Source: Asterochloris sp. CNOR1 (Eukaryota; Chlorophyta; Trebouxiophyceae; Trebouxiales; Trebouxiaceae). From it: a stretch of DNA of 64,000 nucleotides. Below are positions 16,824 to 46,109 of this stretch, in pieces. The number at the start of each line of letters is the position of its first letter. Positions within the stretch are counted from its first letter, which is position 1. The notes under the pieces were generated by a model, which saw only the letters and a list, made by a program, of their open reading frames with translations, did not search any database and was not told where the DNA came from. The position numbers and the translations under genes were made by a program. The DNA is taken from positions 186,001-250,000 of the forward strand of contig OZ017746.1 of assembly GCA_963969365.1 (NCBI GenBank), written 5' to 3'.

Positions 16824-17500
16824 GCTGCCGACTGGCCCTGCACGTGCAGCACTGAGGCTAGCACCATGATCACTGCACAGGGCCACGCACAGGAAGAAAG
16901 ACGCAGTGCCAGCAAGGTGGCGTACTGCCTGCAGGTCCTGGGCTGGACAGATTAGAAAGCTTGCTGGCTCCTGTTCTGGGAGCGTGGGCTGGCTGCCTGC
17001 CTTCCCTCAAAGACTTCGAAGAGGGGGCTGCACGTCAGCGGGCCACTGGGCCAGCGGGATCCCGGCAGTCGCAAGCCTGATAAGTGCGGCTCTGTTTGTT
17101 CTCGTCCTTTATGCAAGGAGAAGCGGTGAGCACTACAAGTCCTAATGTAGAGGTTACTCAGAAAGTATAAATATTGATTTCGACCTGATCCATTTATCCA
17201 TTTTGGCTTTAATCAAGGTTCAAAATGGACCTGTGTTGGTCCAACAGGTTCAAGCTGCCAGGAGGTCAAGCTGCCACTGGCAGCTGCTGGCAGCAGGCAT
17301 GGCCAAGCTTACAAGCTACTACTCATACAGAAATTGGTGGTCTTCAGTTAACAGAGGAATAGTTGGCAGCGAAAAGACATGGGTTGCAGCAACTGAGTGT
17401 GCATTTGAGGAGTTGATCATGCCATTGCATCAGTGGCGCCGCAAAGAATGAAATGGATATCATCTCGTTGGGGGTTGATGAAGCAGGAGGAGGGGGGTTT
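16824..17500. other. Intergenic region, likely promoter plus 3' end
   Basis: This lies between the probable start of the membrane-protein gene and the stop codon of the GT2-GH9 gene, both transcribed leftward. The AT-rich part at 17150-17230, with AGTATAAATATTG at ~17165, is unusual for this window and could be a core promoter for the membrane-protein gene. No coding exon is evident. Confidence 0.35.
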
Positions 17501-20500
17501 CTAGCCTACATTATACCCGCTGCAGATGCTGATGCCCTTGGACAACACACCAAAGCCTTGCAGGCAGAGGTCGTAGGAGCCGCCCTGCTGCGCCAGGCCG
17601 GCCATGACTGTAGTCATCCCTGCATTGTACTCAATGCCTACCAGGGTGCTGTTCCCAGTGCGCTGGTCCACAAAGTAGTCCCCGTTGAGACCAGGCCCGT
17701 ACACCAGGGCCCCTGTGAGGGTGTTGGGGTTCGATTTGGGCGAGTACAGCGCGTTGACTGCGTTGCACTGCGCAGGGGAGTTAGGGCAGCTGCTCGCGCG
17801 ATCCTGTAGGCAGAGCAGGGTCAAATCAGGTTACGTCAGGAACCCTGGGCAGTGACAGCCTGCGACAGCAAGGTAGAACGCACTGTGTGCAGCCAACGCA
17901 GCACACATTGCTGGAGCCCAAGCCAAGCTGGTCCCACCATGCTCGGCAGCACCACCAGAGCAACGCCCCTCCGCGGCCGGTACGGATCAGCTGCAGCCCA
18001 AGCCAAGCTGCTCCCACCTGGCCTGGCATGTGCACTCATGCAGCAACCCCCAAGGCAGCACAGAAACACACCGTCTGAAGCTGGTCACACTGTACCCAGC
18101 ATGTGCACATGCTGGCTCGACTCAGCCAACACCCTCACAGCCCACCTGCACATGGGTGGGGTAATTTGTCCCGTAGCCAACCACGTAGCTCTGCGTTTCG
18201 TCCCCCAGGATGTAGCGCGCCTGACCCTCAGCCCAGCACTTGTACCGTGTGGCCAGGTTGTTGTTGTTGTACTTGACTGCCTGGACAGGGTTGGTGCTGG
18301 GGGTGATCATGTCGCCATACAGCATGGCCAGCATGGCGGCATTCATTGTCTGGGGCAAGCTGGGGTCCAGCAGGTTGTAGCTCCTGCCCTTCTTGGTGAA
18401 CTGGATGTTGCTGGTGGTGCACAGCCACTTGGCCAGGAAGGTCTGCTGCTGGTCGTGGAAGGTGGTGTCGTCGGTCAGGTTGGCCATGAGCACTGTGGCG
18501 GGCCAGATGAGGTTGTCCCAGTCCACCAGCAGGTAGGGGTCCAGCAGGGCCTCCGCACTGTTGACATGGCTGGTGTACCACCTGCAGGTGGGGTTGGGGA
18601 GGTGTCAGCGGGGTTCTGAAGGGTCATTAGCTCAGCTGGGACCATCAAGCAGGCAAGCGTCCAGCAGGACTTGCAATGGCTGGGATGCCGCAGGTAGGAC
18701 CTGGGAGGAGTGGATGGGGTTCTTAAGGGTTTTGCTGCAGTGCCACAGTGGTTGGGGAAGGTGTGACGCTCAGGCAGTGGTCCCTGGCAGGCAGTGGTTT
18801 CCAAACTGCTGCGCTGTAGGCATCAATCTGCGCGGGGCTGCCTCTTGTCCTGTCAACTGCTGCCAACAGGTCTCCGGCCCTGACAGAGTAACCAGCCAGC
18901 ATGGCCCCAGCTCAGCCTGTTTTGCTGCGACAACAGGCTGAGCATGCAGGCTGAACAGAGGACAGCACCACACGCTTGCCACAAAATGTTTCACACTGGC
19001 AGGCATCGCTCCTGCAGGTTTAGTGCTCTGGGGCATCGCGAAGCCAGGAGGCTGCCGTACCCAGTGTGGCCTCAGGTCCCCTCCTCAAAGCAGCAAGCCT
19101 TGGGGCAGCTGTGGGCCGGCAGGCTGCCACCCAGAATAGAGCCCCATCAACTCACTGGTAGGCATCATCGCTGTAGGCGCTGTCCCCAGTTGCCCTGTAA
19201 AGCCAGGCAGCTGCCCAGGCCAGGTCGTCAAGGTAGCTGCTGGAGTTGTAGCTCCCGTAGCCGCTGTAGACCATGCTGCCGTTGGTGAGCAGCCAGGGCT
19301 CTTTGCACGGCGTGGGGGCCTGGCCGTTGGTTTCAGGGATGATCTCAGTGGTGCAGGGGAGGATCAGGTTGTAGGTGTAGCGTGCGCGGTTGCGCACACC
19401 TGCAGGCAGCAGAGCAGTGTGGGGGTTGGGCCAGCAATGTGCAGGCAGGGGCTGCTTTCTGTGTGTGGCACCATGATGTCAGCTTCCTTGCTGCGGACAG
19501 CAGCCTGCCTCTGCATGCAGGCGCAGGGCGGGATACGTCTGTAGGTGTAGCATGCCATTGCCACGTGGAGCAATGATGAGGCGTCCACCGGTCAGGTTTA
19601 TGTGCAGCCTCGGGGACCTCCCAACAGCAACACAGCCCTGGTGCAGCCCCCAAGACTCACCTGCTGCATACAGGAGGAAGGAAGCGTTCATCAGCTGGTT
19701 GTAGTACGCCGGGTCACTGTTCTCGAACAGGAGGGCGGTGGAGGTGAAGGCGGCACTCATTTGGCCCGCCAGGTCTGAAGCCCCGTCGTAGGTGGAGACA
19801 AAATAGGAGGGGCGCGGGGCCACCAGGTCCTCTGGGCGATTCCAGGTGCCCTGCTCAACGGTGTAGTTGCCGGACTGCAGGCAGGCAGGTGGAGGCAGTC
19901 AGGGTGCCGGGCCTTTGCAACAAAAGCTGCCGGTGTGCACGCAAAGGGCCAGCACTGCAAATAGCAGCCATCACATCAAAGACTTCAACCTTGCCATCAG
20001 GTGCCTCAAACCAAGGGCGCCCTTCACCGCACTGCTGGTGTAAAGCCCTGGCCCTAGTTGAAAGGCTCTCACAACCCTGCATATGGGAGTCCATGCCACT
20101 AGGGTGCCCCTGCCAGAGGTCATGGCACAGGCAGCAGGCTTGATATTCATTGGGCAGGAGGCGTCATGCATCAATACCCATCACCCACCAGTTGCAGGGC
20201 AGCAAAGCAGAGCAGAGTGCCCACATGGCAGATGATGAAGACCTCTGGCCCACCACTCACCAGGCGCAGAGCAGCAGAGCAGAGCCAAGTGCCCACCTGG
20301 CAGGTGATGATGACCCTCTGGCACATCAGGCAAGCAGTTGCAGAGCAGCAAAGCAGGGCCATGTGCCCACCTGGTAGATGATGATGAACTCTGGTGCATC
20401 TGGCGTGCCATTGTTAGGGTCAGGCATGAAGATCTTCAGCAAGTAGTCGGTCATCCACCGCACATTGTTCAGGCCCGCTTGGAAGTTGCCTTCGGTTTTG

Positions 20501-23500
20501 TTGTAGCCCTGCAGGTGCACTTGCAGACTTGAGCAGAGGCACCAGGTGACGTGACGCCTTCAGCAGAGTCCAGCAGAGGCTGTGGCTGCCTGGTGGGTGC
20601 CTTCTGCCCAGAAGCCAGCTGAGGCACTGGGCCGCACGGGACCAGGGTTACTGCTCACCCAAATGCAGCTCCTGGTGGTGTATGCAGCTGTGGCTCATGG
20701 AGGCAGCAACTTGCGCACACAAAAGCAGCTGAGGTGGCAGAGGCAGAAGCAAAGACGGCAGCTGCGCGGCGACGGCGCCACCGCGGAGCACAGGCAGTTC
20801 CAATTTGACAGAACCGATGGAACTCACATCTCCAAAGGTGAGCATGCCCCAGGCCAACATGGAGGTGGCAAAGGAGGTGGGCAGCACCATTGTGAGGTCT
20901 CCTGCAAGCACACAGAGCACGGCTGGGCAGCCACAAACAAACACAAACATGAAAGACACCAACAATACGGTGCAGATGGAGGCTTGCTTGTGGCAGCCAC
21001 AGACAGGCGCTGGCATGTACAGCCCGGCCTGCTTGCACGGCAGCTGTGGGATCTGCTTGTGTGGGAAAGGTCTTATTTGCTGCAGACTTGCTGGCTGATA
21101 AGCAGCTTGCCGCAATGCAAATGTTGATACCAACACCGGTGCTAAGTACCCTGAAGACCTTCCACAAGCCCTAGCAGCGGCTGTCACCCACCTGCAATCT
21201 CGCCCGTCATCATGCCGCCAGCAATGCTGCCGTTGGGGGCAGCCCAGCTGGTCCAGTTCTGGGACCGGGGGCCCATAGCATTCACGAGGGCATCTTGGCG
21301 CCAAGAAATGGGGTTGTGGGGCGGCAGAGATCCCAGCTTCATCGCATCGTAGAACAGCTGACTCTGACCCACCAGCTGGCTGAAGTCGTACTGCCGTGGG
21401 TATACCAGCCACAGCAGGATGATGGCAGCCAGCCCTGCAGCAGGAGCCATTTAGTTCCTTCTTTCTAAAGAAAGAGTAGTGCCATATAGTGCTGCCATGC
21501 CCACCCGGAGGCTATGGGACAGTATGCGGGCCATGCCAGACTTGCTTGTTTCATGTGTGATCTTGAATGCAGCTGCAGTGCAGCTGCAGTGTTGCAGCAC
21601 AGCAACAGCTTCACATAGCTGGACAGTGCTCTGAAGCAGGCTTGAGCTTGTGCACACAGCTGCTTGACCAACAGGTCTGCGCCTTGCACACTTCTCATGC
21701 CTGTGCACCTACTGCTCCAAGAATCATGACATCAGCGGGCACCATTGACTTTCTAGGCAGGAGTGTCCCAAGAGCTGCACAGCCCTGCTGTCCAGCTGCC
21801 CCACACCTGCCACAGTGGAGAGGTAGAAGCCGACGGTGCAGGCCAGGCGCAGAGTGGTCCCACGGCCCACGTAGGCATAGTGGATGAGCAGGTACTGGGG
21901 AATGATCGAGTAGACGATCCAGATGAGCGACAGGGTGAGGGTGGTGATCACGCTGCCCTGTGAGATGACCTGCAGAAGCAGAGGCGGGCGCAGTGTGAGC
22001 AGGCAGCTGCAGGACAGTTCTGAACTGCAAGGGGCTACTGTGGGAAGTCAGGCAGATGCTGGGGCAGCTGAAGCGGGGCCTGCAAAGCCTGCAGCAGGAT
22101 GCGGCCCTGTCCACAGACAATTTTGGCACACCCATGCAGTTGGCCGGTACACATGCAAATGCAGTACGAGGGCAGGCAGATGCTACACTGCAGCACACTT
22201 CCATTGCTATAGCAGGGGTGCAAACAGGGATGGACCTTGCAAAGGGCTAAGCCCGGGATGAGCAGCAGTCTCGCCAGGCAGCATTTCAGGACAGGCGGCG
22301 GCCTTGTGCAGACTGAAGCACGTGAAGGCCAGCAGCAGGCAATCAAGACAGGCAGACATTGTGCAGAGTGAAGCCAAAGGAGGCCTGCAGCCCTTGGCAG
22401 GCGGCAATGCCCCAACATTCATTAACGTCAAGCAAATCAAAGGCCATGACGGCCAGCAGCCAGCAGTCAAGACAGGCGCTGACCTTGTGCAGACCGAAGC
22501 CGAGGGAGGCCAGCAGCCCAGCCAGGCAGATGATGGGCATCCACAGATCGCCCAGGCCATTCTTCATCAGCAGGTTGCTGCCCTTGAGCGTGGTCTTGAA
22601 GGTAATGGCTTTGCCGCACGTGCTGCCCGCTGCGCGCCAGCAAGCCTTGACAAAGGTGAACCTGCAGGGGAGGTGGGGAGTCCTATAAAGGAAGGCCCAG
22701 GTGTTGAAAAACCTGAAGCCCTCAGCCTATGTCTTGGAGCAGGCAGCTGACTGCAGCTTGTGCCAGGACAGCTCAAGCGTATGAGGTGCCTCTACCAGCA
22801 GGTGACAACTCGGGGCAGCAGTCAGCCTGCAGGCAGCAGCATGTTATGGACATTCCAAACGCAAGGCAGCAGCAGCAAGCTGGCCTCCACCTGAAACCAG
22901 CAGCCCCCCAGCAGCAGCGCCCTGCACAGGGTCAGGGGTCTAGGGCTTGAGGAGCAGAAGCAGCCCAGCAGAAGCACCCTGCAGGAACAGCGCAGTCATG
23001 CACAATCACCAAGTCAGCCTGCCTCACCAGAGGATGCTGTTGGACACGGAGTTGAACCAGATGGGCTTGAAGTGCTTGCGGCTGCGGCAGTAGTTGAGCA
23101 CCAGGAACTGGGCTGCCATGTAGGCGGTCAGGCCCAGAGCCGCCCACCAGGAGACCACAATGGGGAAGACACCAGCCCACACTGTGACCTGCAGAGGTGA
23201 GGGGACAGGTCAGGGGGAGCTTGCTCCTTAATCAAACAGTTTGGAGCGCTGGCCTGAAGCTGTGCCACTGCTGCTCCTGCTGAGACCATTGTCACCGGCA
23301 ACAAGCACCCACTGCTGCTCCTGGGTCACTTCGTTGACCACTAGCATGCAGCTGCCATTGCTGCTCTTGTTGCAGCCCACTAGGCTCGCAGTGGCCAAAG
23401 CGCTGGGCACACACACATACTATGCCTGCACACTATGAACAATTCTCTGATGTTCGAAGCACAGCCCGGCACGCATGCGCTCTGCCATAACTCCAACGGC

Positions 23501-26500
23501 AGGGACCTGCTGCAAATGCACAGCAGTCAGAGAGTCCAAATCTTCAGATGGGCCCCATGCACACAGCCTGCAGTGGCTGTGTGCCGGCTTGACAAGACTG
23601 CGCGCTTGCTGCATGTCAGGGCTGTGCACAGCAGGTTGGCACATCAGGAGGGTCACCAGGGGGATGGCAATGAACATGGGGGTAGTGATAGCGCCCACGA
23701 CATAAGCCCAGACGCCGGAGCAGTACATCAGGCGCTGGAAGAGGGGCAGCCCGCGCTGGAACAGGGGGCAGTGCTCGTTGGACAGGCAGATCTGGAAGTG
23801 GCCCTGCAGGCAGCAAAGGTGGAGCGGGGTCACACTAACAGTGCACAGCAAAGCAAGCACAGCATGCAGCTGCATTCAATGCATGCCAGGCACTACAGCC
23901 TGTATTGCCCTGTAAAGCAAGGGCCGAATCAGACCAGGCTGCAGTGAGGCAGTCAGCCTGCGCTCGGACGGCTGCCACAGGTACAACCTGTTTGACAGAC
24001 AGGCATGCCTGCTGGCAAGCAAGGGTGCAAGTTTGGCACCACCAAATGTTGGAGAAGTCGCTTTTGTGCTGTCACAGGAGACTTCCAGACCACAGAAGAG
24101 CCCTTGGTGAAAGCCAACCACCACATTCCTACAGCCAGGGCCATACTATTAAAAGCAAAACGCCACCCTGTTGCACCCAGCGTGCATGCAGGCCCGGCAC
24201 ACTCCAGCTTAGATGCTGTGCGGGACCTGAACACCTGTTGGTCTGCTGCTTCTCACCTTGCACCATCGCGATCTTTGCTGGAAGCAGTTACGCACTTGCT
24301 CGGGGGCCTCACCAATGGCCAGGTACTCCTCCACATACCTGCACATTGAGAGGATTGTTATGTGGACGCTTGAAGTCTTGCAGTTGGCTGAGTCGGTGAG
24401 TGGGTAAGGCCATGGCCAGCAGGGCATACTACTGGCAGAGGGCCCAACTCATGGGAACAAGTGCAGCATTCATGCTGCAGCTCTCTGCTAAGTGTTGTGC
24501 AGTGCAGTGCGTTTAGCACGCAAAGCGATGGCCCGATGCTTGTGCTGACGCCCTCCTGCATAGGTGGTGTGCTCTGCCCCAGCTCCAGACATGTGACAAG
24601 TGTCCAGCCATGCATGCTGCGTCATGGGCAGTGCTGCTGCAGCGCTCAGCTGGAGTTGCCAAGGGATAAGCATGACGACAGAGGTTTCCCACATGACCTG
24701 AGAGGCGATGCAGCACAGAACAGGGATCACGGTGCCACAGGTAAGCCGCTGCAGGGCGCCTGGGCAGGGCCACATGGAGGCAGCACTGCTCGCCGACACG
24801 CGGCGCAGCAGTGGACAGACCATCTGCTGCCACGTCATCGCAGCGCCTCCATCCTGTGCATTTGACGTATGCAGGCCCACACTCGGAGTGCCCACCTGCA
24901 GTGCCACTTGTGCTTCTTCAGCTCCATGCCGAGAGCAAAGTCCTCAGTCAGTGTGAACTCTGGGGACCAGCCGGCCTGCTGGAAGGCAGTTGACCGGGTC
25001 AGGAAGTTGGTACCTGCACAGCACAAGGCACCATCAGCATGACTGTAGGGGTCCAGTGAGGGAGGGCAAAGGGTTTTCCGGGCAAAGGGTTTCACGAGCT
25101 TGGGAAGGGGTGCCAGGAAGTGTGAGCTGGCATCCCAATGTCTTGCTGGCAAGCTACACCATCCGCTGATGGCCCAGCCTGGCCTCTGACTGCCTGCTGC
25201 TGCTGGTGCTGGCTGGCATGCAGGCGTGCTGCTATAGACGCCCATCTGATTGTCTGTCACACCTGTGCAGGAGATGAAGCCGAGAGCGTCGTAGCCATGC
25301 TGCGCGTACTCCCAGAAGTTGATGTTGCAGTGGTTGAAGATGTCTGCGGTCACATTGACGTTGTGGAAGGCCTGGGGCGAGAGCACCATGCCCACATCAT
25401 CACCTGCAGCAGGCACAGCTCAGGGCTGAGCACCCTGGCTCTGCAAACCCACTCTGCCAAGGCTGCGATGAGTGGTTTTATCACAGAGTGGTAACAGCTC
25501 AGGAGTGCTCAAAACTACACACCTGCTGATACGGCAGCTGAAAGCTGCAGCCTCAGAGCACTGCCACCAGTGCTCACAGCATGCACTTGCATACAAAGGT
25601 CGCAGTGGACAAGCAAGTCCTAGTGCTAGAGCTGCTAAAGCTCTGCCTGGACTTCATGTGTGATGTGGTTATCCAGGCCACAAGTACTCACCGGCGTCAA
25701 ACTTGGGCAGCATTTTGCAGAAGAAGTCCACATTGGCGACCTGGTCAGCATCAAAGATGCACACGAGCTCGGTGCCGGGGATGGGCACGCCATCAGGGTA
25801 GATCTGCTTGAGGCAGTTGTTCAGATTGGCAGACTTTCCATTCATCTCGCCCGGGGTGCGCTTCCGCCCAGACACGTACACCACTTCAGGACCCATGTGG
25901 TCGCACCTGCAAGACACATGGGCAATCGGAACATGAAATCAGGCTGCAATGGGATACGCAGGCCAGCAGCTGCAAAAAGGTGCCCACTTCAACTTTCGCT
26001 CAAGGCCGGCACTGAGAACCAGCCAAGGACTGGGGCAAATACACAGCAGTTCAAGCTCTGGCTGCACAGCCCCAAGGTGAGCGGTGAGGCAGCTCCTGCG
26101 CCTGATGTTGCCTGTCAGGAAACTGGACCACGGCTTTCAGCAAGAGCGTTGAGGCAGCTCTTGCGCCTGATGTTGCCAGGCAGGAATCTGGACCACAGCT
26201 GCCAGGAAGAGCATTGAGGCAGCTCTTGCGCCTGATGTTGTCAGGCAGAAAACTGGACCACGGCTTTCAGGAAGAGCGTTGAGGCAGCTCTTGCGCCTGA
26301 GGTTGCCAGGCAGGAACCTGGACCACAGCTTCCAGAACAAGCACTGAGGCAGCTCTTGCGCCTGATGTTGCCATGTGGGAATCTGGACCACCGCTTCCAG
26401 GCACAGCAGTTCCTGCCTTGCACTGGGAGCCCTCAGGCCTCAGAAGCTCACCACTTGCGCTTGATGCTGTCCTTTCCATCATCACACAGGTACAGGGTGC

Positions 26501-29500
26501 GCTGCACGCCAGCGGGCAGGAAGGCTTTGAGGGCGGCGGTCACGGTTGCGCCCACAATCTCCAGCGGCTCGCTGTAGCAGGGGACGAGGATACGAACATG
26601 GTATGGGCGGTCCACCTGTAGTGGGGGTGGAGGCAGCGTGTGAAAACGCGGGCTGCCTGACAGCTGGAGGTGCGGCTCGCCTGCTGCAAAGGCAGCCTCA
26701 TGGGATATAGCAGGCAGCCTTGGCCCTACAGCAGGCTGCATGTGTGATGAGGTCTTGTGGCCGTCGTCATGCATATGCGCAAGCAGTGGGTGGCGTTCCA
26801 CTTGCAGAGGGGTTTACGTAATCTGACAGGACGGTGGTTGGTGTCAAACAATTGGCAGGGCCGGTGCTCCGCCGTGCAGCTGCCAGGCTGCAGGCTGCAT
26901 AAGCTCTGGTCGGGGGAAGCAAGCCGACACGCACGACAACATGGAGGCAGGCACAGCTTCTGGGCAGCTCCCAGTGCTCCATGACTCAGGGCAGCCAGCA
27001 CAGCCTGATCAAGTCGTGGCTGCGCTGAAAATACCAGGTACTGTGTCTGCACTGGTATGCACAAAGACTTGGGCAATGTGTGACTGCATGCCTGCTTTGG
27101 GGCGCTTCGCTGTCAATGTCAGAGCAATGTCCGGCCGGTGGCAGGCCCCCCCCCCCCCCCCCCCCCAAAACACAGAAACTCACAATGGTGAGCCCTGGGT
27201 TGTCAGGGTCCTGCCGAAGCGGTTCATTGACGGGGTCGAGGAGGATGTTGAGCCCCCACAGGAGGGTGGTGGTGGCTCCCATCATCTCCACAATGAAGAT
27301 CAGCACACCATACCTGCAGACGGGCAGGGGCTGGTCAGACGCAGGCGCACACCCTGACAGTTTGCTGCAGAGCCGCAGCTACTGCCACACTGCACAGCCT
27401 GAAGCAGGTGCATGCCGTCACAGCTGCCTGTCGGCAGTCAGTTGTGCAGAGCATCTAGACAGGGTAGAGAATGTCCTGGCATCCAGGTGAAACAGACAGT
27501 GTACTGTCAGCACCCGCCCAAGATGAGCGCCAGCACGCAGGGTAGCTGCTGCAAGTTGAGCTGTGATGCACTGCACAGCTGCTGCACGGAGCATGCAGCA
27601 GGAGGGGGCGGCAGCAGCATGTGGTGCCAGTGATTTGGAGACCAGCACATGCTGCACAGAGGGCAGCACAGCCGCCTCAAGCTGCACAGCCTTCAAAGCA
27701 GCAGACCTGCTTTGAGATGTGAATCAGTCTGGCGCAACACTTGCGGCACTGCCAGGGTAGCAGGCTTCCACCTCATCACGACTGCAAGACTTTGGTGCTA
27801 CTGAAGCCATGGACTCCCAACTCACCAGGTGTACTTGCCCAGGCCCAGGGTCTTGGTCACACGCACCCAGATGTAGAAAATGAGGGCAACGAGGTAGATA
27901 AACATGATGGTGCACCCAAGCCAGTTGACTTTGATGCGCTTGCGGTACTTGTGGGCCTGCTGCTGCTCTGCAGGCGGTCAGGGCACAGGCATTTCAGAAG
28001 GGACTGCTGCAGTGCTACAGCACAGGGGGGCTGCTGCGCCGACCAGGTGAGGGTGGCCGGGGTTCTTCTGCTGCTGGCGCTGCGCACTTCAGTGGCAGAG
28101 CACCAGCTGTGCAGATCTGCAGGCGGCGCAGCTGCAGCAGCAGCTGCCCTAGTCCTCCCCTGCTCAGCTCTGAGGCACCTGGACTATGTCCGCCTACACC
28201 GTCTCAGCACAGATCCCAATCACAGGCGCCCCAGTGTGATGCCCCAAAACGGCATTTGGGGTCTGACACGCAGCATCTCGGCCCCTTAGCATCAGCCGGC
28301 CCTGCCAGGCTGCTGACGGCAGCTAGTAGAGCCAGGAGGAGCACCTGCCAGGTGGCGACACACCAGCAAGCAGGCTCTTCCCATGCACCTCACAACCAGG
28401 CACAGTCGAGCTGCGTCCCCCGCTGTCCCCCCCACACTAAGGCGCCTTCTGCCGCAGGCTCCAGCAGCTTACCTTGCCTCCTGCAATGCACAACTCAGGT
28501 AGCACTGCATAGGCAGTCACCTTCCGGTTCCTCGCCCTCGCCAGTCTCCCCCACCACCATGGGTGCCTCAATGTCGACCACGCCCGAGTTGAAGGCGGGT
28601 GCACAGTATGCTTCCGGTTCATCCTCGTCAAAGAAGGGGATGGCTCCCTTCTTGGACTTGACCGGCATGGCATAGTCTGACTCCAACATGGCACTTGAGG
28701 CCTGCAGAAGGGGCAATAATGAGGAGTCATGGGGATGCAGGGCTGGAGCCCCAGGTGGGGTCTTAGAGTGCAAACTGCAGCAAGGGGCTGCTGCAGGGGA
28801 GGCATTTGAGCAGCCTGCTGACAGCACATGATTGACAGCCTGTGGTAAGGTGGCAAGCTTGGCGGCATAGCAGCAGGCCTCAGTTGCCGCCCCACATGGG
28901 CACTCTGCGAAGCTGCCATGGCACCCAGCCCGGTGTTGCTGCTGCCTTGTGTTCCAGAGAGCAGGCGCAGGTATGTGTCAGGCTGGCAGGCAGTCAGCCG
29001 GCTTGGCTGCCAGTCTGTGCCTCCCGCTTCAGGGCAGCATTGCTGCACACCTCCTGCACAGCCGCAGATATCATTGACTGACAACCCTGCTGCTGCTGCT
29101 GCTCACCCTTCGGTGGTGACCCTTGGGGTCTTGCAGGAGAGCAGTGTCTGCGGTGGACATGTCAGAGTACTCGTCCATGCCAGCTCCGTCCATGTCTTCC
29201 AGAGCCTCCACCAGCCTGCACAGAGCACAGCTGCTTGAACAATCTGCTCAATGACACGCGTCATGGGTAGCATCTAAGGTGGAAATGTGCCCAGGGCCGT
29301 CTGCAAAGAGGACACGCCGAGGTGGTGCTGCACTGTCAAGTGCCGAGCAGCAGGCATGAGATGATTGCATTTGAGGTTGGTGCAGGAACAGCGCATACCT
29401 GGCCAAGGAGCCTAGATTCTCCTTCTTATCTGTGAAGCTAGGCTGCTGGGACGCCTGCAGGGCCAGCAGGGCATTGTATGAGACCCCAGTCGCGCGGTTA

Positions 29501-29696
29501 GCTAAGGCTGCGTGCTGGTGCAACTTCCAGGTGGCCTCAGGAAACTCACCAATTCCTCCCCATAGTGGCTGTACTGATCCTCCTGGTCGTATTCCCTGTG
29601 CCCCTGGCCATAGCCCTGACTGCTACCTTCGCTGTAAACGTCCTCGTCCAGGGCAGGCCCGTAGGGAGCCTCCCCGTGTGCTTGTGGGCTGTGCAT
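17501..29696 (-). CDS. Cellulose-synthase-like GT2 fused to GH9 glucanase-like domain
   Basis: I trace 21 exons: 29550-29696, ~29107-29205, 28521-28701, 27826-27967, 27184-27313, 26452-26615, 25692-25906, 25263-25403, 24896-25013, 24257-24338, 23657-23803, 23028-23188, 22484-22661, 21807-21969, 21192-21434, 20828-20901, 20371-20508, 19661-19874, 19156-19399, 18146-18581 and 17501-17803. Phases agree from the third exon on, giving ~1240 aa. After an acidic N-terminus come two membrane segments, then a GT2 core with DDGKD (~280), FDADQ (~340), TED (~431) and QQRSRW (~465). A multi-span membrane domain follows to ~710. A GH9 domain (LFYDAMKLGSLPP, PTSFATSMLAWGMLTFG, ARYILGDETQSYVVGYGTNY, VYGPGLNGDYFVD) runs to the stop. 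It probably synthesises a beta-glucan at a membrane. GH9 active-site positions are changed (see findings). The exon 1/2 junction is the least certain. Confidence 0.85.
19525..19575. repeat. Decayed copy of GH9 exon start
   Basis: On the minus strand this reads AMACYTYRRIPP, matching RNRARYTYNLILP at the start of the exon 19156-19399. It lies ~165 bp upstream, in the preceding intron. Confidence 0.55.
20200..20375. repeat. Tandem copies of an exon end plus donor
   Basis: Three units occur (~70 bp apart; minus strand), each made of a coding-like piece ending in TTCATCATCT.CCA/G followed by GTGGGCAC. The true exon end is at 20371 (EFIIIYQ then GTGGGC). The other two, at ~20222-20245 and ~20300-20320, are decayed and lie in the following intron, so each supplies a decoy donor. 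Confidence 0.65.
22265..22490. repeat. Tandem copies of an exon end in GT2 intron
   Basis: Units near 22290, 22345 and 22480 share GACAGGCG....CTTGTGCAGA..GAAGC..G.GGAGGCC. The one at 22480 is the real exon end (FGLHK then GTCAGC on the minus strand). The others are degenerate copies lying in the intron that follows. Confidence 0.55.
26090..26440. repeat. 65-bp tandem repeat, about five copies
   Basis: Units start at 26090, 26155, 26220, 26285 and 26350. Each opens with CAGCTC(T/C)TGCGCCTGATG and contains CTGGACCAC.GCT. On the minus strand the opening reads CATCAGGCGCAAGAGCTG, close to the true exon end at 26452 (CATCAAGCGCAAGTG then GTGAGC). The array fills the intron just after that donor. 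Confidence 0.8.
27146..27166. repeat. 21-bp poly-C tract beside a splice donor
   Basis: This is an uninterrupted run of 21 C. Read along the GT2-GH9 transcript it is a G21 run starting 17 nt after the exon end at 27184. It may form a G-quadruplex in the pre-mRNA, and its length is prone to assembly error. Confidence 0.85.
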
Positions 29697-30274
29697 GGCT
29701 GTGCGGCCCTGGCTGCGCTCTCTCAGCAGCTCATGCACCAGGCTTTAGGAGGGAGAGAGGTTTACGGGTGCAGGGGCCGCTCCCTCGGAAACTGCCGAGC
29801 GGCAAAGCAGCTGTTCAGTGAGTTATGCCTGCACTAGTCTGGGGTAAAGCTGCCGGCCTTGAGTCACGAAGTGGGGCAATCAGCTTCAACCACCCAACAA
29901 TTTAGTGTACGTTCGTTCTTTCTCAAGTATTTAAACAAGCCCCTGCCGACAACAGTCACATGCTGTCAACATCCTCGGGGCTGCGTACGCCCTCGCTGCA
30001 CGGCACGTGAGCTCTGGAAACCCCTCACCCGTCAGCATGCATGTGCCTCAGATGCAAATAATCTGCTTCTTCTCAATACAGGACCTGCTACCTGAGGCTC
30101 CAGAAAAGCTCTGTACATCGATTTCGAGGTGAGGCATGCCTGGTCTTCTGTATGGGCAGCAGGGCTGCTTTGCTGTGATGCTCACATGGTCCATGCATAG
30201 CTCAGTATCTCCAGCCTCAAGGGAGCACCCCAGTCAAGGCTGTGCATACCCATGCAGGCAGGCGCCTAGCTGTG
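29697..30274. promoter_or_regulatory. Divergent promoter region (GT2-GH9 / SDR)
   Basis: This is the 578-bp gap between the start codons of two oppositely transcribed genes. The most AT-rich part is ~29890-29945 (ATTTAGTGTACG, TATTTAAACA), which may carry the core promoter elements. No other coding exon is apparent. Confidence 0.45.
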
Positions 30275-32747
30275 ATGGCAGGCTCCCAGATCAAGGGGAA
30301 GACTGTTCTCGTCCAGGGCGCATCCCGAGGCATCGGCCTTGAGGTGAGCTGGCCCTGCAAACCAGCAGCTCGCGCCATTCAGATACAAAGTCTTGATGCC
30401 CGCCATCAGCTGCTGCATGCTCTGCCTGATGCACACTGCGGGGCAGCAGCCAAGATGCACTCTACCTGTATGCGGCATGTCACGATGCTGCACCCTGCCC
30501 TGCAGTTTGTGAGGCAGCTGGCGGCCAAGGGCAACACAGTGGTGGCCACCTGCAGAGAGCCCCAGAAGGCTTTGGAGCTGGCCAAGCTCAAGGACGTGAC
30601 AATCACCCAGCTGGATGTAGCCAGTCCAGAGGCCATCCAACAGTGGGCCAAGAGCCTGGGCAGCCACGCACAGCACTTTGACGTGAGGCAATGGCCTTAT
30701 ACAGCCTCGCGCACACCCTGAGAGCTTAAAACACAGACCAGCTGGATAGGCCAGGGGCTTGTTGCGTTGTTCCATGGTCATGTGTTCACAGCATAGAGCT
30801 GAATGTGACTCAGCAACAGGCAAGCAAGGGGGCTCTAAGGCATGGTGCATGATCCTGTGAGCTGCTTGAATGGCCCACACTGCTGGTCCTGCGTAAGCAC
30901 ACCCCAGGGTCTGAAACCATGCATGAGTCAGGCCATCTGCATCTTGGTCAGGGGCTGTTCTGCAAACAAAGGAGTAGCTTGCTTGGCAGACATCATACAT
31001 GCAGTGCCAGTGCATGTGGCCTGTGGTGCCTGGCACGTGTGCCTGCCGCTGAGCGCAGGCACGGCACTGAGCCTTCTGCTGTTGTGATGTGGGATTGAGC
31101 ACCTGCTCTTCATTGCTGTTAGGTGCCTTTCTGACAGTTGCACCGCCTGGCTGCAGTATGTCCTCAACATTGCAGGGCATCTGGGCCAAGCAGACACTGA
31201 GACAGCCACAGCAGAGCAGATGCTCTTTGACTACAAGGTCAGTGCATGCAAGCTGCTCATCCGGCCTGTTGATGTGCCGAATCCTGTCTTGCTTGAGTTC
31301 AAGGTCCTGGTACTGGCCCTGGCCCTGCACTGCCAGTGGACTTGCTCTTGATGACCAGGGCATGCAGCACCTTCTCTGCACCATTCAAAAGCCTATGTCC
31401 CCTCATTGCTGCACCTGCCTGTACAGGCAGTTGCTGTTGTGCCAGTGCTGATTCCTCACCTTCGCACCTGTGTGTGCAGCTCAGTGCTAGTGGGCCCCTG
31501 GTAGCCCTCATGTATGTACTTGCCTGTGCCGGTTACCGCTGTTGGGCCCCTGCTGGTTCTCATGTGTGCTCTTGCATGTGCAGGTCAATGCAATTGGGCC
31601 CCTGCTAGTGGTACAGCATCTCTTGAAAGCTGGCCTTATTGGCCCTCCAGGGACTGTGATTGGCAACATGACCTCAAAAGGCAAGTCTGTTGTGCTGATG
31701 GATCTCTGAGCTGTGCTTGGCAGTGCCTCCCATGCAAACTGGCAGCTTTGCTTTCAGTGCCAGTGGTAGGGCATGAGTGCTGTGCTGGCCAGTCAGATAT
31801 AGCAGATGTGTGCACAACGTAGCAGGCTGCTGCTGCACAGCATCCAAGACAGCTGACGCCCCAGTGCACTTGCCCCTGTAGTGGGGAGTGTGGCCGACAA
31901 CGGATCGGGCGGCAATGTTCCATACAGAGCCTCAAAGAGTGCACTAAACAACAGTGAGCTGCCCGGCTGCGTCCGTGGCTGCCACATGACTTTGCAGATG
32001 TCTGACTGCTGTGCTCTTGGACTGTGTGCTGGACATTGGCTTCTTGAGCCCTGGTGTGGCGTGCAGCACAAGGTCTGGGCACAGCTGCAGTCTGGACGTA
32101 CAACGCTTGTGCCATGATGTTGCGCAGATCTTGCTCTGCACAGCTGGTATAATGCAGCATGACTGTGCAGAATTCAATGCTTGCGCCTTAACTGACTCCA
32201 CTGCGCTGCCCTGCAGTCAACAAGTGCATGGCAATTGAGCTTGCAGACAGGAAGATCACAGCAACATTGCTACACCCTGGCTACGTGAGTGGTCTTCGCT
32301 GTGCTGCTGTTTGCCTGCAGTCCACACATGCATGGCAGCTGAGCTTTCAACTTCAGTAACAGCAAAGTGTTCACCTCAAGACCTGAGTGCTCCCTGCTGT
32401 GCTGCTGCACTCCATACAGAATAAGCGCCTTGCTGCTGGCACGGCGTGCTGAGTCAGGCCTGCTTTGTAAGCTGTAGAGGTGCACCACCACAGGACAAAG
32501 TGCAGATCCTTCCATGGCGCAGGTGAGGACAGACATGACTCGCGGCGCCGGGTTCATCAGCGTGCAGGAGAGCGTGTCAGGCCTCATTGCAAATGTGCTG
32601 GAGGGCGGCAAGGACCTGAATGGCACATGGCACGATTTTGCAGGTGCAGCCGCTGCTAGGCTGTCCTTGTGCTGCACTTTTTCTTGTTTCCCACTGAAGT
32701 CTCATTCCTGCCTCCCCCTGTTGCAGGCAAAGAGATCCCTTGGTGAC
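30275..32747 (+). CDS. Short-chain dehydrogenase/reductase (SDR)
   Basis: Eight exons join in phase: 30275-30343, 30506-30682, 31157-31237, 31584-31680, 31882-31953, 32217-32284, 32523-32643 and 32728-32747, giving 234 aa. It has a Rossmann fold with the nucleotide-binding GASRGIG at residues 15-21, then an Arg-containing turn (ATCREP) that suggests NADP(H). The structural motif reads NIAG instead of NNAG (~86-89). The active-site Tyr and Lys lie in YRASK (~156-160), and HPGYV follows with the usual Pro-Gly. It ends DLNGTWHDFAGKEIPW. The shape matches sniffer/C-factor-like classical SDRs. The substrate is unknown, with no targeting signal at the N-terminus. Intron 4 has a GC donor (AG|GCAAGT). 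It is transcribed divergently from GT2-GH9. Confidence 0.87.
31455..31583. repeat. Two decayed copies of SDR exon-4 start
   Basis: Upstream of the true acceptor at 31583, two units ~60 bp apart repeat its context: TGTGTGCAG then a GTGGGCCCCTGGTAGC piece (~31475), and TGTGCCG then a GTTGGGCCCCTGCTGG piece (~31530). The real exon reads GTCAATGCAATTGGGCCCCT. The first copy retains a usable-looking acceptor; the second has lost AG. Confidence 0.75.
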
Positions 32748-33096
32748 ATGGTGGATGATCTCATATACTTCCTATCATGTCAATTAAGGGGTGTTCAGGC
32801 AGATAACATGTACAGCTGCCACAGCCAGCATGGCTACATGTGGATTGCACCAGCATGCTCTCAGAATCCAGAAAACTGAAGCATGCTGTCACGCGCATTA
32901 CAACCCAGCAGACACCCGCCACCAGCAGCGGTTAGACAGTAAACTGAATGGCCCGTCTTCCAGCCCAGCGCATGACATGATTCCCCGGACACCGGCGACG
33001 TGAACCCACTGCAAACTCAGAGCAAACCTGATGCCGGTCAGCTGCCCACAGCTGTGGTCTCAAGCTGCCCCGTTCCATCATCAAAGCAACTGGATC

Positions 33097-34209
33097 ATGC
33101 TTGAGGCCACCCGTCCACTTTGGAGGAACCTGACAACAAAGCTGCCAGAGCTGCAGAAGAGCCTCTTCCACACGACCACCTTGACTGAGGCCTTGCACAG
33201 ATCAACCAGTAGCAATCAAGGCGAGTACAACTGCCTGGCGCTGCACTACTATTATTCAGGATCTTTCTTGTCACAGCACAGCAGCACAACACCTGCTTTG
33301 TTTACAGGCACATCTGATGAGCAGGCTGGCCCCGACACTAGCAGACTGGCTCCGCACCTGCAACAGGAGTGGGACCATGCGGCCAACGCCCACCTGGGCA
33401 GCATCATCGTTGCGCCCCAGAGCAACAGGAAGGCCTGGTGGAGCGGCGGCCTGTGCAAGACTGGGCAGCCGCACAAATGGCAGGCAAGAGTCAGCCATCG
33501 CTCCGAGGGCGCCAGCTGCCCCAATGACCGTGGCAAAGCAGCCTGCCCCTGCAATGATCTGGCCCACAACCACCCAGAGGTGGCAGCGGAGTGGGACTGG
33601 GAAGCCAATGGGGAAAGGACACCAGAGACTGTGACGGCAGGCAGCCAGATCAGAGCAGACTGGAGGTGCAGCCTCTGTGGGCACAAATGGAACGCCGTTG
33701 TGATTAGCAGAACATTCCATGGGGCTGGATGCCCCCAGTGTGCCAATGAGGCCCGCCGCAAGAAGACAAGGCAGCCCAGCATCAGTGATGGAGCACCACA
33801 CCTGCTGGCTGAGTGGGACTGGGAGGCCAATGAGAGATGTGGCTGGCACCCAGACCAGGTCACTCTCTGCTCGCACATCAGGGTGCATTGGGAGAGCCGC
33901 AGGGAAGAGTGCAAGCTGGGTCTGGTGCACACATGGCAGGCAACACCATTCAATCGCATTGGAAAGAGTGCTGGCTCCCCCTTCCCATCTGGCATGGCTG
34001 TGTGTGCCTGCAACTCCTTGGCTGTGCAATGTCCTGAGGGAGCTGACTTTTGGGATTTTGTGTCAAACGAAGAGTTGACTCCTGGTGATGTAGCCATGCA
34101 GTCCAACAAAATCGTGGCCTGGAAGACTCCAGATGGTAGGCAGTGGCGGCAGACGGTGGCTGAAGTTGTCAACAATGTCAGAAGACACCGAGCCAAAGTG
34201 AATAAGTAG
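33097..34209 (+). CDS. Zinc-ribbon (DUF4379-like) repeat protein, copy A
   Basis: Two exons, 33097-33220 and 33308-34209, give about 341 aa. The intron has a GC donor (CAAG|GCGAGT) and joins in phase 1. The same acceptor context precedes the paralogues. The N-terminus MLEATRPLWRNLTTK is basic and acid-poor, as in organelle presequences. The body repeats a module with W.W..N....P..V..GS, a trypto-rich strand and CxxC pairs. The best unit is around DWRCSLCGHKW...GAGCPQCANE; others have lost some cysteines. This matches the treble-clef zinc-ribbon repeat family I know as DUF4379. The molecular function is unknown; nucleic-acid or protein binding is a guess. It is closely related to the intact copy at 54.2-55.3 kb. 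Confidence 0.72.
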   Translation: MLEATRPLWRNLTTKLPELQKSLFHTTTLTEALHRSTSSNQGEYNCLALHYYYSGSFLSQHSSTTPALFTGTSDEQAGPDTSRLAPHLQQEWDHAANAHLGSIIVAPQSNRKAWWSGGLCKTGQPHKWQARVSHRSEGASCPNDRGKAACPCNDLAHNHPEVAAEWDWEANGERTPETVTAGSQIRADWRCSLCGHKWNAVVISRTFHGAGCPQCANEARRKKTRQPSISDGAPHLLAEWDWEANERCGWHPDQVTLCSHIRVHWESRREECKLGLVHTWQATPFNRIGKSAGSPFPSGMAVCACNSLAVQCPEGADFWDFVSNEELTPGDVAMQSNKIVAWKTPDGRQWRQTVAEVVNNVRRHRAKVNK

Positions 34210-34951: not shown

Positions 34952-37917
34952 ATGGGAGCTGCTGCCCCCAAGAGTGAGGAGTTCTTCTGGACAGACACCA
35001 CAGAGCCCCATGCAGCTAGGAGGAGGGCCATCCTGGCGAAGTATGGAGACAAAGTCAGGGCGCTCTATGGATATGACCACAGCACAGCAGTCCAGGTGAT
35101 GCTCCTTGACATAAGCATAGGTGTTTATAGTCGAATGTGCAGGCAGCACAGGGTAGGCCACCGATTCCAGGTGTCCTTGTGGGGCTGCCAGATTGAAGTG
35201 CATCAGTGCATGCCCTTGAGACTGACTTGCAAGGGCTTTGACTGTCAGCTTTGTGGCTCTGCAAACACGTCCAGGCCGGTGCTGGCTGTGCTGGACCTGT
35301 CTGCTGGCTAGCCTTCTTGTTTATGTGCTGTGCGTCTTGTTTAGGTGCTGACATGTCTGCAGCTCCACATTGCTCACAAGCTTGCTTGATTCATCTTGTA
35401 TGGGGCGGGATTCACTTTGCATTAGCCAGTCACATGCACCCTGGCAGGCATCGATTGGCGCACATACATGCTCTGTAGACAACAGCTTTGAAGGCTTTGC
35501 AGAGCAGTGGTGTCGCCATTACAGTGCCCCCATATGGCCGTCTTGTGCACCACCAGTGCAGCTCACCCTGTACAGACAGCAGTTGTCCACCTCTGAGAAT
35601 GTGACAGGGGCGGCAGCTGCTGAATGGGTGGTGCTTGACTGCAATGCATGCACATCTGGCCTCCGCACGGCGGCCACACCAAGCGATGTCAGTGTCCAGC
35701 CACATTCTTAGATTGCAGGCTAAGCTGCATGCCCTGCGTGTAGCTTTGCTGGGTAGAGCTCTAGTAACATCGCTGCCCTTTCTGCTCGAGAATGCATCTC
35801 GTGTGCCTCAGTGTGTTCGTCCTTCCCCTCTGGCTGCTTCTGTCTTACAGGCTGTGCCAGGTTGCAATGTGCCGCTGGAGAGGCAGTTGCCATGCTAGAG
35901 GCATGCTACTTGCAAAGCCTCCTGCAGCTGTGCCAATCTCCCCCAATAGCTTCCTTGGGCAACATGCCCGCGTGACTTTAGCACGCATTTGGTCTAAGGC
36001 TGCCTGCCACAGCCAAAGCTCAGCAGAGTTTGACTCAGATTTAGTCAATTCGCTGTGTTGTGGGCAACAGGCTAGCATGCGCCGCGCTGCCTCTGTCAAC
36101 GGATCCCCTCTGACGGATTCCTTCCAACTGCTGCAGGTTGGCTTCGTCTGCTGCCTCCAGCTCGTGATGGCCTACATGGTGCGCGACATGCCCTGGTGGA
36201 AGATCGTGTTCGCCGGCTACACAGTCGGCGGCACCGCCAACCAGAACCTGCTGTCCGCCCAGCACGAGCTGTCCCACTTCCTGGCCTTCAAGCGACCGCT
36301 GTACAACCGCATCCTCTCCATCCTGTCCAACTGCCCTGTCGTGGTGCCCATGGCCGTCGCCTTCCGCAAGTACCACCAGGAGCATCACTCTCACCTGGTG
36401 AGCCTTTGGGGCGTCATACCTTCTCATACCTTTGAATGGTGGCGAGCTCTCATTGTCAGGCAGTCAGCATTGCTGAGGGGCCTCCAAGTAGCAGCAGGGC
36501 TGGCACAGCAGCCTGCCAGGGAGTCTGGTAGGTAGCATGCTACACTTGGAGGGCACTGCTGCAGTGAACACAATGCAGCTGGGATGTGACATGCGAGGCT
36601 GAGTCTGCTGCATTTGAGCTTCGGTCTGTGTTCAGCATTCACAGGATAGAGTCCCAGCATCGCCATGCTGCATACCCTTTCCCTTGATCAACGTCCAAGA
36701 CCAGACTGTTCACAAATGCCGTCCTGGTGCAGGGCGTGGATGGCTGGGATGTGGATCTCCCCAGCTTTGCCGAGGCCAACATCATTGTCGACTTCTTCGC
36801 CAAGTTTGCCTGGACCTTTGTCTACATCATCGTGTACGGTGTGCGTCCCCTGCTGATGCGCCCCAAGGAGCCGGGGCTGGCAGATGCCATCAACTGGGCC
36901 ACCGTGTTGGCCTTCGACGTGGGCATCCTCTACTTTCTGGGCGTCAAATCCCTCCTGTACCTCCTGCTGGGGACAGTGTTTGGGGGCGGCCTGCACCCCA
37001 TTGCGGGGCACCTCATTGCAGAGCACTACATGTTCCTCAAGGTGGGCAAGTGTTGGCTGTGGCCGATGAGTTGCTGGGATGCACCTGCAGTCGAAGAGGT
37101 TGCCTCCTGCTGAATTGTGTGCCCTGAGTGGGATGTGCAAGTCTGAGCCGTCCTGCCCGTGTGTTCATGGCTCAAGCAAGCGCAATTGGCAGGGCCTAGT
37201 GGTACACTTGAGTGACGTATCCTTGTCTATTCTGTTCCCTTTAGTCACTTGGCGGCGGCTGGCTTCGTCGCTGGCCTTGTGCCTTCAAGCAGGTGGCCTG
37301 TCATACCTTTGCCTGTCGTGCTCCACCAGCTGATCCTGCTGCTTATGCTGCAGGGCCAGGAGACCTACTCATACTATGGGCCCCTGAACTGCCTCACCTA
37401 CAACGTGGGTTACCACAATGAGCACCACGACTTCCCCCAGATCCCCCACACGCGGCTGCACAAGGCAAGGACCTCCATTTGCTGCACCCAGAGCAGTGCA
37501 CGAGGCACACAGTCTGCCTGCTGGCTGATGCATGTTTGTCACAAGCGTGCAGCCCTGTGGCCAAGCCAGCCTGCAGCTGCTGTGTCTGCAGCCAGTCTCC
37601 ACGGCAGCTGTGGAAGCTGCAAAGTGAAAGTCACTCACCCTGTTTTGGCTGTTCCTGTGTCCCTCAAAATGCCTGCTGCTGTGCAGTTGCGCGCCATCGC
37701 TCCTGAATTCTACAACACCCTCAGCTTTCACTCAAGCTGGACCTGGGTAGTGGCCAAGTTTGTGACCGACCCCGAGGTCGGTCCCTGGACCCGAATGCGC
37801 AGGAAGACAAGGGATGGCACCCCGGGAGGCCACCCAGTGCTGGACCCTGTCATGTCAGAGCTAGCCAAGCCCTCAGGTGGCTCCAGCCAAGCCGCTGCTG
37901 CTATCAAGTTGGCATGA
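34952..37917 (+). CDS. DES1: Sphingolipid delta-4 desaturase
   Basis: Five exons join in phase: 34952-35095, 36137-36397, 36733-37041, 37354-37464 and 37687-37917, giving 351 aa, a normal length for the family. The N-terminus carries the family's signature ([20 protein letters not shown]). Three histidine boxes are present: HELSH (~91-95), HQEHH (~128-132) and HNEHHD (~259-264). They ligate the di-iron centre that introduces the trans-4 double bond into dihydroceramide at the ER membrane. Hydrophobic spans flank the boxes ([31 protein letters not shown]). Intron 4 begins with a GC donor (AAG|GCAAGG). A TGTAA motif at 38111 may be the algal polyadenylation signal. Confidence 0.93.
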
Positions 37918-45000: not shown

Positions 45001-46109
45001 TTCTCACTGATTCGCACAAGCCATGAGCTCCCCAGTGCCTGCGGGTCGTCTATGAGGGCTTTGCCAGCCCCTTTCGGGTTGCCCTCCAGCATGCTGCAGT
45101 TGCCTCTCCAAGCGGCACAGTAGGATGCTTGCCCTCCCCCGCTTGTTTCTGCAGGACATGTACAGATGCTCTAACAGCCCCACCCAGCACATGCCCTCCA
45201 GCAAGCCACTTTGGCGTTGCACTCTTCAGCACAACTCCCCTTGTTCTGCAGGACACGCATGAGCTTTTGATCAGCCCCACTCAGCACAAACCCTCTCGCC
45301 TGCCACTTTAGCGTTCCACCCCTCAGCACACCTTCTAAAGTGGCCTTCAGCCTGCAGGACATCTATGAGTGCTTCACCAACCCCGGGCGCATCCAGGCAT
45401 ACACGCAGGCCCCTGCAAAGGCAGAGCCGCGGCCAGGGGGCCAGCTCTCCCTGTTCGATGGGACAGTGCAAGGCAAATTTGAGGAGCTAGAGCCAGCCAA
45501 GAGGCTAGTACTGCAGTGGCGATTCAGGTGGGGACCCTGCTCAGTCTGCACATGTCCTGATTTGGCAGCATTTCACAGGCGCAAGGACTCAGAATCTCCT
45601 GCGGGTGCCATAGCCCTTGCCGGCTGTCAGGCAGGCAGCTATAGCAACTGCAACCTGCCTGTCTCAGGCCAGCCCCTCGACGTGCAGGCGGCTCTCAGCT
45701 TGCCCCACTTGGTGCTGCAGGAATTGGCCCAAGGATGCCTGGTCCAAGGTACGCTATCAGCATTCATTGAACAGTCACGGGGTGTCGGTGCACTTCACTG
45801 TGAGGTTGGTTGCCAGCTCTGTTGGGCTTCCATGTGCAGGTCTGCATCACGCTGGAGGAGCCCAGTCCAGGCAACACCATCATGCATCTGAAGCACACTG
45901 GCATTCCTCATGAAGACGAGTGAGTCATGTCCTGGAGCGGAGTGAAATCGTTCGTTGTTGTGCTGTGTGCCTCCTCCCACACACAGGGCTCACTTACGCT
46001 GGAACAACCCTGCAGGTACGGTAATGCCGACGTGGAGGCCACCACAAGGAATGGGTGGCACCAGATGATTCTCCGCAGGATCAAGATGGTGTTTGGCTAT
46101 GGGATGTGA
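42041..46109 (+). CDS. AHA1: Activator of Hsp90 ATPase (AHA1 type)
   Basis: Eleven exons agree in phase throughout: 42041-42095, 42167-42234, 42458-42518, 42589-42714, 42881-43020, 43807-43962, 44373-44462, 45358-45527, 45721-45748, 45840-45919 and 46016-46109, giving 355 aa. The protein is a co-chaperone that binds Hsp90's middle domain and stimulates its ATPase in the cytosol. The N-terminal Aha1 domain (1-~180) has the hallmark MAKFDEADPRWLVQER and TNVHGWHWEERD. A Pro/Ala/Ser-rich linker (~205-245) leads to the C-terminal START-like domain (DIYECFTNPGRIQAY, QWRFRNWPKD, GWHQMILRRIKMVFGYG). Introns hold several exon-edge copies. It is convergent with the DnaJ gene, with 153 bp between stops. 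Confidence 0.93.
43170..43430. repeat. Decayed copies of AHA1 exon-5 end
   Basis: Two or three ~115-bp units (ends near 43208, 43319 and 43421) each carry a piece like AGA.ATC/CGGCT...GT.CTTCTGGG.A/GCAGGCAAGCAG. They resemble the true exon end at 43020 (ACTCGGCTCAAGCAGGCC...GCAAGCAG then GTCAGC). The last is followed by GTAAGA, an intact donor. Confidence 0.55.
43519..43587. repeat. 23-bp tandem repeat, three copies
   Basis: The unit GAGTGGCACCCTG(C/T)(A/G)CAGCTGAT is repeated at 43519, 43542 and 43565 inside an AHA1 intron. Confidence 0.85.
44884..44957. repeat. 17-bp tandem repeat, about four copies
   Basis: The unit CAACTGCCCAGCGCAAG is repeated without change three to four times inside the AHA1 intron 44463-45357. 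The perfect copies suggest recent expansion. Confidence 0.85.
45040..45300. repeat. Three decayed copies of AHA1 exon-8 start
   Basis: Upstream of the true acceptor (45357), units ~100 bp apart repeat its context. GTCTATGAGGGCTTTGCCAG lies at ~45048, CTGCAG|GACATGTACAGATG at 45155, and CTGCAG|GACACGCATGAGC at 45252. The real exon reads CTGCAG|GACATCTATGAGTG. The latter two keep a full acceptor. Confidence 0.8.

Follow-up and report, generated by a model that had tools for sequence, protein, structure and literature searches.

Described systems and the present locus

KORRIGAN, the GH9A protein of plants, is regarded as an active glucanase and is thought to trim or edit the nascent glucan. Why cellulose synthesis needs a cellulase, such as KORRIGAN or BcsZ, is a long-standing question. 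On the synthase side, Rhodobacter BcsA carries a PilZ domain.

Proteins that join a synthase to a cellulase-family domain have been described before. In the green alga Coccomyxa subellipsoidea C-169, four GH9 proteins possess a tunicate-like cellulose synthase-like domain, and the parallel with the tunicate GT2-GH6 fusion has already been drawn for them (Blanc et al. 2012, PMC3446292); the section of that paper on cellulose metabolism does not discuss the GH9 catalytic residues. The GH6 domain of tunicate CesA is described, in the relevant passages, as being without the catalytic Asp (PMC7464555, PMC10334666), as likely functionless (PMC10334666), as having cellulase activity (PMC3446292), and as having an activity that remains to be determined (PMC7464555). 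A survey of GT2 domains used a GH class, and GH9 fusions are unnamed in its passages on the subject (PMC13016765). Among the literature examined, a GT2-GH9 fusion was stated in the passages of PMC3446292 alone, and none of the passages searched, in a literature without most subscription journals and supplements, described an algal GH9 domain that has lost catalytic residues.

The gene analysed here lies in a window of 64 kb, by which we mean the whole stretch of DNA that was analysed. Its predicted product resembles the Coccomyxa C-169 proteins as described in the passages of PMC3446292, having GH9 joined to a domain like that of cellulose synthases; from this likeness, and because the gene is intron-rich and GC-rich, we take the source to be a green alga as well. 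As in tunicate CesA, GT2 is N-terminal and the cellulase-family domain C-terminal, and the reported loss of catalytic residues from the fused cellulase domain (passages of PMC7464555 and PMC10334666) appears to be shared as well; the likeness is known from published descriptions, and the tunicate domain is a GH6 in an animal lineage whereas here it is a GH9. KORRIGAN, in the published passages on it, is likewise a membrane-anchored GH9 tied to cellulose synthesis, but it is a separate protein with its own anchor. Rhodobacter BcsA (PDB 5ej1) has the same GT2 core with the DDG, DxD, TED and QxxRW motifs and has F, T and K in its gating loop; it differs in having no GH9 and is 31% identical in the aligned part. 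No PilZ domain was reported by Pfam in the fusion protein.

The preliminary description had proposed a GT2-GH9 fusion as an algal version of the tunicate idea. The fusion is well supported by the sequence, but the idea is not new, as the Coccomyxa cases and the tunicate parallel are in PMC3446292. The surprise is limited because the architecture has been in print since 2012; what the present analysis adds is that the fused GH9 seems to have lost its acid Glu together with the first catalytic Asp.

Structure of the predicted gene

The gene model runs from 29696 to 17501 on the (-) strand and joins 22 exons at consensus sites into a predicted coding sequence of 3786 nt (1261 amino acids), in phase from ATG to stop. 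All 21 introns are GT-AG and measure 95-574 nt. In the list below, further evidence besides the gene model is given in brackets.

17501-29696 (-), whole predicted gene, ATG to stop, GT2-GH9 fusion (domains)
29550-29696 (-), exon 1: ATG at 29696; N-terminal region preceding the first hydrophobic segment (hydropathy)
29399-29454 (-), exon 2
29107-29215 (-), exon 3
28521-28701 (-), exon 4
27826-27967 (-), exon 5: TM1, hydrophobic 175-208 (hydropathy)
27184-27313 (-), exon 6: TM2, about 212-237 (hydropathy)
26452-26615 (-), exon 7: GT2 start, DDG motif, D300 D301 (Pfam, alignment)
25692-25906 (-), exon 8: GT2, DxD motif, D362 and D364 (alignment)
25263-25403 (-), exon 9: GT2
24896-25013 (-), exon 10: GT2, TED motif, E452 D453 (alignment)
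24257-24338 (-), exon 11: GT2, QxxRW motif, Q489-W493 (alignment)
23657-23803 (-), exon 12: TM3 begins (hydropathy)
23028-23188 (-), exon 13: TM3/TM4 (hydropathy)
22484-22661 (-), exon 14: gating-loop-like FKTTLK, TM5 (hydropathy, alignment)
21807-21969 (-), exon 15: TM6 and the leading half of TM7; phase 1 at its 3' end (hydropathy)
21435-21806 (-), intron 15, 372 nt; donor CAG^GTGTGG, acceptor CTCCTGCTGCAG^G (splice scores)
21192-21434 (-), exon 16: second half of TM7, GH9 start, first half of degenerate DAGD region (hydropathy, alignment)
20828-20901 (-), exon 17: GH9, AGD of the DAGD region, D794 (alignment)
20371-20508 (-), exon 18: GH9; 3' end and donor inside the 72-nt x 3 tandem repeat
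19661-19874 (-), exon 19: GH9
19156-19399 (-), exon 20: GH9
18146-18581 (-), exon 21: GH9 up to the HHR region, where Q1161 takes the place of the first His (alignment)
17501-17803 (-), exon 22: GH9 C terminus, L1215 at the position of the catalytic acid Glu; stop 17503-17501
17309-17313 (-), TGTAA, likely polyadenylation signal, the first on the (-) strand since 32902

A domain search of the conceptual protein, one of the checks proposed in the preliminary description, matched both GT2 and GH9 (Pfam). As a gene model, a predicted protein with GT2, membrane helices and then GH9 is thus confirmed, and we take it that two such domains and 22 in-phase exons do not arise by chance. When the fusion protein was searched against the 64-kb window by tblastn, 22 rows were obtained, each on its own exons, and no paralogues were found in the window.

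Two tandem repeats lie within the gene. One, of 72 nt x 3 (20177-20394), spans the 3' end and the donor site of exon 18, so that donor-like sites recur within intron 18; exon 18 read on into intron 18 reaches a stop codon. The other, of 65 nt x 5 (86% match), lies at 26079-26401 inside intron 7.

The hydrolase half

The GH9 match (PF00759, E-value 1.9e-72) covers residues 730-1227 and model positions 2-443 of 444, and the solved-structure matches at E up to 0.001 comprise 18 distinct sequences, named as glucanases or cellulases. For comparison we used 69 bacterial GH9 loci (L081-L149) and termite 1ks8, the only non-bacterial control. A first set was drawn from 58 loci (L081-L138), 35 of which contained an ORF of at least 300 amino acids matching the fusion GH9 at 1e-5; these 35 matches, each longer than 350 residues, were aligned together with 1ks8 as 36 controls. 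Because this set had been chosen by likeness to the fusion, a wider one was made with an HMM of the controls. Matches were found in 56 of the 69 loci, and the 55 that were long enough gave, with 1ks8, 56 proteins.

Sixty-nine columns are identical in at least 35 of the 36 first-set controls. The fusion GH9 keeps 45 of them, and the fold is therefore probably kept; in a leave-one-out analysis over the first set every other member keeps at least 85% of the near-invariant columns. The differences include the active site. In the numbering of 1ks8, we take D54 and D57 to be the two catalytic Asp residues and E412 the acid Glu of GH9. All three, as looked for in an active GH9 endoglucanase, are present in 36/36 first-set controls, and the fusion does not have the full set. 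At the position of E412 it has L1215, where the wider set has Glu in 53 of 56 and gaps in 3, with no other residue. D54 falls on a gap (Asp in 55 of 56, one gap), and D57 aligns with the Asp D794, followed by a one-residue deletion in the fusion (56/56 Asp).

The E412 position lies inside exon 22, and no splice choice at an exon edge can alter it. Restoration of the DAGD motif by alternative splicing of intron 16 was also considered and rejected: when 683 donor-acceptor pairs were tried, the reading frame remained open into exon 17 for 126, and D-[AVSTGC]-[GA]-D was produced by 0 of these 126. Further losses in the fusion are H124 to Q871, W301 to D1088, H359 to Q1161 and H360 to D1162. In the wider set H124 is His in 42 of the 56 proteins, H359 in 48 (with 6 Gln and 2 Tyr) and H360 in 48, and W301 is Trp in 53. 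Since some divergent GH9s of the wider set share the His losses, these are not diagnostic of a dead GH9; it is the missing acid Glu and first Asp that speak for a dead enzyme, and we give little weight to the His changes.

An active, or differently active, GH9 that trims or edits the nascent glucan via D794 and a substitute acid is in our judgement unlikely. Such an enzyme would fit the AGD (D794) kept in the alignment, the 45 of 69 near-invariant columns retained, the acidic E1219 that sits four residues after the lost Glu position, and the tolerance of divergent bacterial GH9s to changes at the His positions. On the other hand, Leu replaces the acid Glu in none of the 56 controls, and the first Asp is absent here while the sole exception among the controls is a gap. 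The GH9 of the fusion is therefore probably catalytically dead and not a working cellulase, and the suggestion that the synthase brings its own working cellulase becomes doubtful with the loss of these two residues.

The synthase half

GT2 families were matched by Pfam at residues 262-559, the best being PF13641 (3.6e-18, residues 262-495). The best PDB match is Rhodobacter BcsA (3.8e-32), and each of the six distinct sequences matched among solved structures (E up to 0.001) is a bacterial cellulose synthase. The residues D300, D301, D362, D364, E452, D453, Q489, R492 and W493 are kept, each of them present in 80/80 bacterial relatives. We take D300-D301, D362/D364, E452-D453 and Q489-W493 to belong to the known GT2 catalytic motifs DDG, DxD, TED and QxxRW; they lie in the GT2 domain between membrane helices, the arrangement looked for in a cellulose synthase. 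The gating-loop F, T and K are common to the fusion and both BcsA sequences.

Identity of the GT2 part to the best 80 of 285 bacterial relatives is 23-30%. In the alignment with the 80 bacterial ORFs, 66 columns are at least 97% identical, of which the fusion keeps 43 and differs at 23. One stretch reads GKSAN in the fusion; the 80 bacterial relatives have AKAGN there, with 79-80 of them agreeing at any given position. The NCBIfam model CelA (TIGR03030), from a library made for bacteria and archaea, scored 143.6 bits and did not reach its cut-off of 699.1. Because of the GKSAN replacement and the CelA score, cellulose as the product is something we infer and do not regard as certain.

These two observations would also suit a GT2 that makes a different beta-glucan (e.g. 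mixed-linkage glucan) or another polymer, as would the grouping, in the passages of PMC9915684, of CslP and the synthases of tunicates and oomycetes with CslO, itself near the mixed-linkage glucan synthases of fungi. We consider this reading improbable, as the solved-structure matches point to cellulose synthases throughout and the domain fused to the GT2 has the fold of a cellulase. In the reading that we favour, the GT2 half would be a membrane-bound beta-glucan synthase of bacterial/tunicate type, most likely one that makes cellulose.

The two halves retain similar shares of their near-invariant columns (43/66 for GT2 and 45/69 for GH9). The catalytic set, however, is kept in the synthase and lost from the hydrolase, which we read, from one fusion sequence compared with bacterial controls and one animal control, as a loss of cutting and not as general decay.

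One gene or two

The junction on which the fusion depends is intron 15. As stated in the preliminary description, the phase-1 end of exon 15 at 21807 is followed at 21434 by exon 16, which reads a hydrophobic span followed by the GH9 start, and the later GH9 exons stay in phase to the stop at 17503-17501. The protein reads ...GFYLSTVA up to the junction and GLAAIILLWLVYPRQYDFSQ... after it. Scored by leave-one-out, intron 15 has a donor of 7.5 and an acceptor of 12.4; the other 20 introns range from 5.0 to 13.0 for donors and from 6.1 to 14.6 for acceptors, and its length is ordinary too. With a matrix built from the 21 sites of the fusion gene itself, sites with scores at least as high make up 3.7% of 652 GT and 1.2% of 812 AG in the gene region. 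The last hydrophobic span (697-725) comes half from exon 15 and half from exon 16, and a synthase that stopped in intron 15 would therefore be left with a broken helix. The GT2 and GH9 parts have GC3 values of 0.80 and 0.82, respectively.

TGTAA is the usual polyadenylation signal of chlorophytes. None was found on the (-) strand between 32902 and 17313, where the gene's span would be expected to hold 3.6, and the TGTAA at 17313 follows the stop codon by about 190 bases. This absence is only moderate evidence for one gene. Intron 15 contains neither TGTAA nor AATAAA.

An in-frame ATG at 21450 would begin MAPAAGLAAIILLWLVYP, a hydrophobic, signal-anchor-like segment ahead of GH9. Two adjacent genes, namely a GT2 ending by read-through of exon 15 into intron 15, where a stop follows after about 27 codons, and a KORRIGAN-like anchored GH9 starting at this ATG, are improbable, since 372 nt without TGTAA or AATAAA would need to accommodate the 3' UTR of one gene and the promoter and 5' UTR of the next, the synthase would finish in a truncated helix, the splice sites of intron 15 are ordinary, and the same architecture is already published for Coccomyxa in the passages of PMC3446292. 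The ATG at 21450 is a possible but disfavoured start for a stand-alone GH9A of the KORRIGAN type, a type II membrane protein, and the single-gene GT2-GH9 fusion is, from the gene model, very probably real.

Membrane topology

Hydropathy analysis gave segments at 175-208, 212-237, 523-570, 633-660, 661-688 and 697-725. The segment 523-570 was split into two helices by our own judgement, giving about seven helices. With two helices before and five after a cytosolic GT domain, we infer that GH9 and the C terminus would lie outside, at the exit of the glucan. The GH9 part carries ten of the 11 N-glycosylation sequons, whereas shuffled sequences predict 6.1 there; with P = 0.058 the excess is not significant alone, and the bias is for that reason consistent with an outer GH9 and goes no further.

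Proposed function

On balance we favour a one-gene protein that is most likely a cellulose synthase with a tethered, non-cutting GH9 domain for glucan binding or assembly at the exit. In this model a single gene would encode a membrane synthase and a GH9-fold domain held on the outer face by an additional, seventh helix. The GT2 domain would polymerise UDP-glucose in the cytosol and thread the chain across the membrane. At the chain exit the GH9 domain, having neither the acid Glu nor the first catalytic Asp, would not cut; it may bind or guide the chain, or keep synthases together. An intact synthase with an altered cellulase active site would separate the binding role from the cutting role within one molecule.

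It is possible, though we hold it only tentatively, that tunicates (GT2-GH6) and green algae (GT2-GH9) made independent fusions in which both cellulases lost catalytic residues and kept the fold. The two cases together would then be a natural replicate, and with a probably dead GH9 here such a convergence merits a test. If it is true, the fused domain would be a chain-guiding or complex-assembling module that does not cut, and cellulose synthases would often need binding rather than cutting from a partner cellulase.

Origin of the two halves

Scans of IMG/VR with the GT2 part and with the GH9 part found no relatives. A bacterial operon with GT2 beside GH9 was considered as an origin and obtained no support: phmmer with the fusion GH9 found GH9 in 0 of the best 80 of 285 bacterial GT2 loci (flanks of up to 10 kb, many shorter), a biased sample, as the query alignment had two BcsA rows and the loci were mostly Rhodobacterales-like. 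The fusion GH9 as a query matches just a part of bacterial GH9s (35 of 58 loci). The sole phmmer match was L081, a GH9 locus fetched separately and outside the 80. In a whole-genome GH9 search on 23 of the 80 GT2 loci, 22 of the 23 genomes were without a match; given the biased sample and the limited reach of the query, this result and the phmmer one are both weak. A recent transfer of the GT2 from bacteria is not supported either, given the identities of 23-30% to the best 80 of 285 relatives.

Neighbouring ORFs

No tRNA was found in the window. Upstream of the fusion gene, on the opposite strand, is a short-chain dehydrogenase-like ORF (30179-30718, +), with a Pfam score just below the cut-off (25.1 vs 26.6 bits). 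Two ORFs at 35768-36532 and 37216-37914 (+) match portions of the fatty acid desaturase family, the first below and the second above the cut-off. A ketopantoate hydroxymethyltransferase-like ORF (39534-40457, -; 8.3e-13) and an AHSA1 domain-like ORF (45271-45888, +; 8e-9) were also detected. Two long ORFs, at 33004-34206 (+; 5e-39) and 54336-55337 (+; 5.6e-44), each contain four stretches of DUF4379, a probable treble clef zinc finger.
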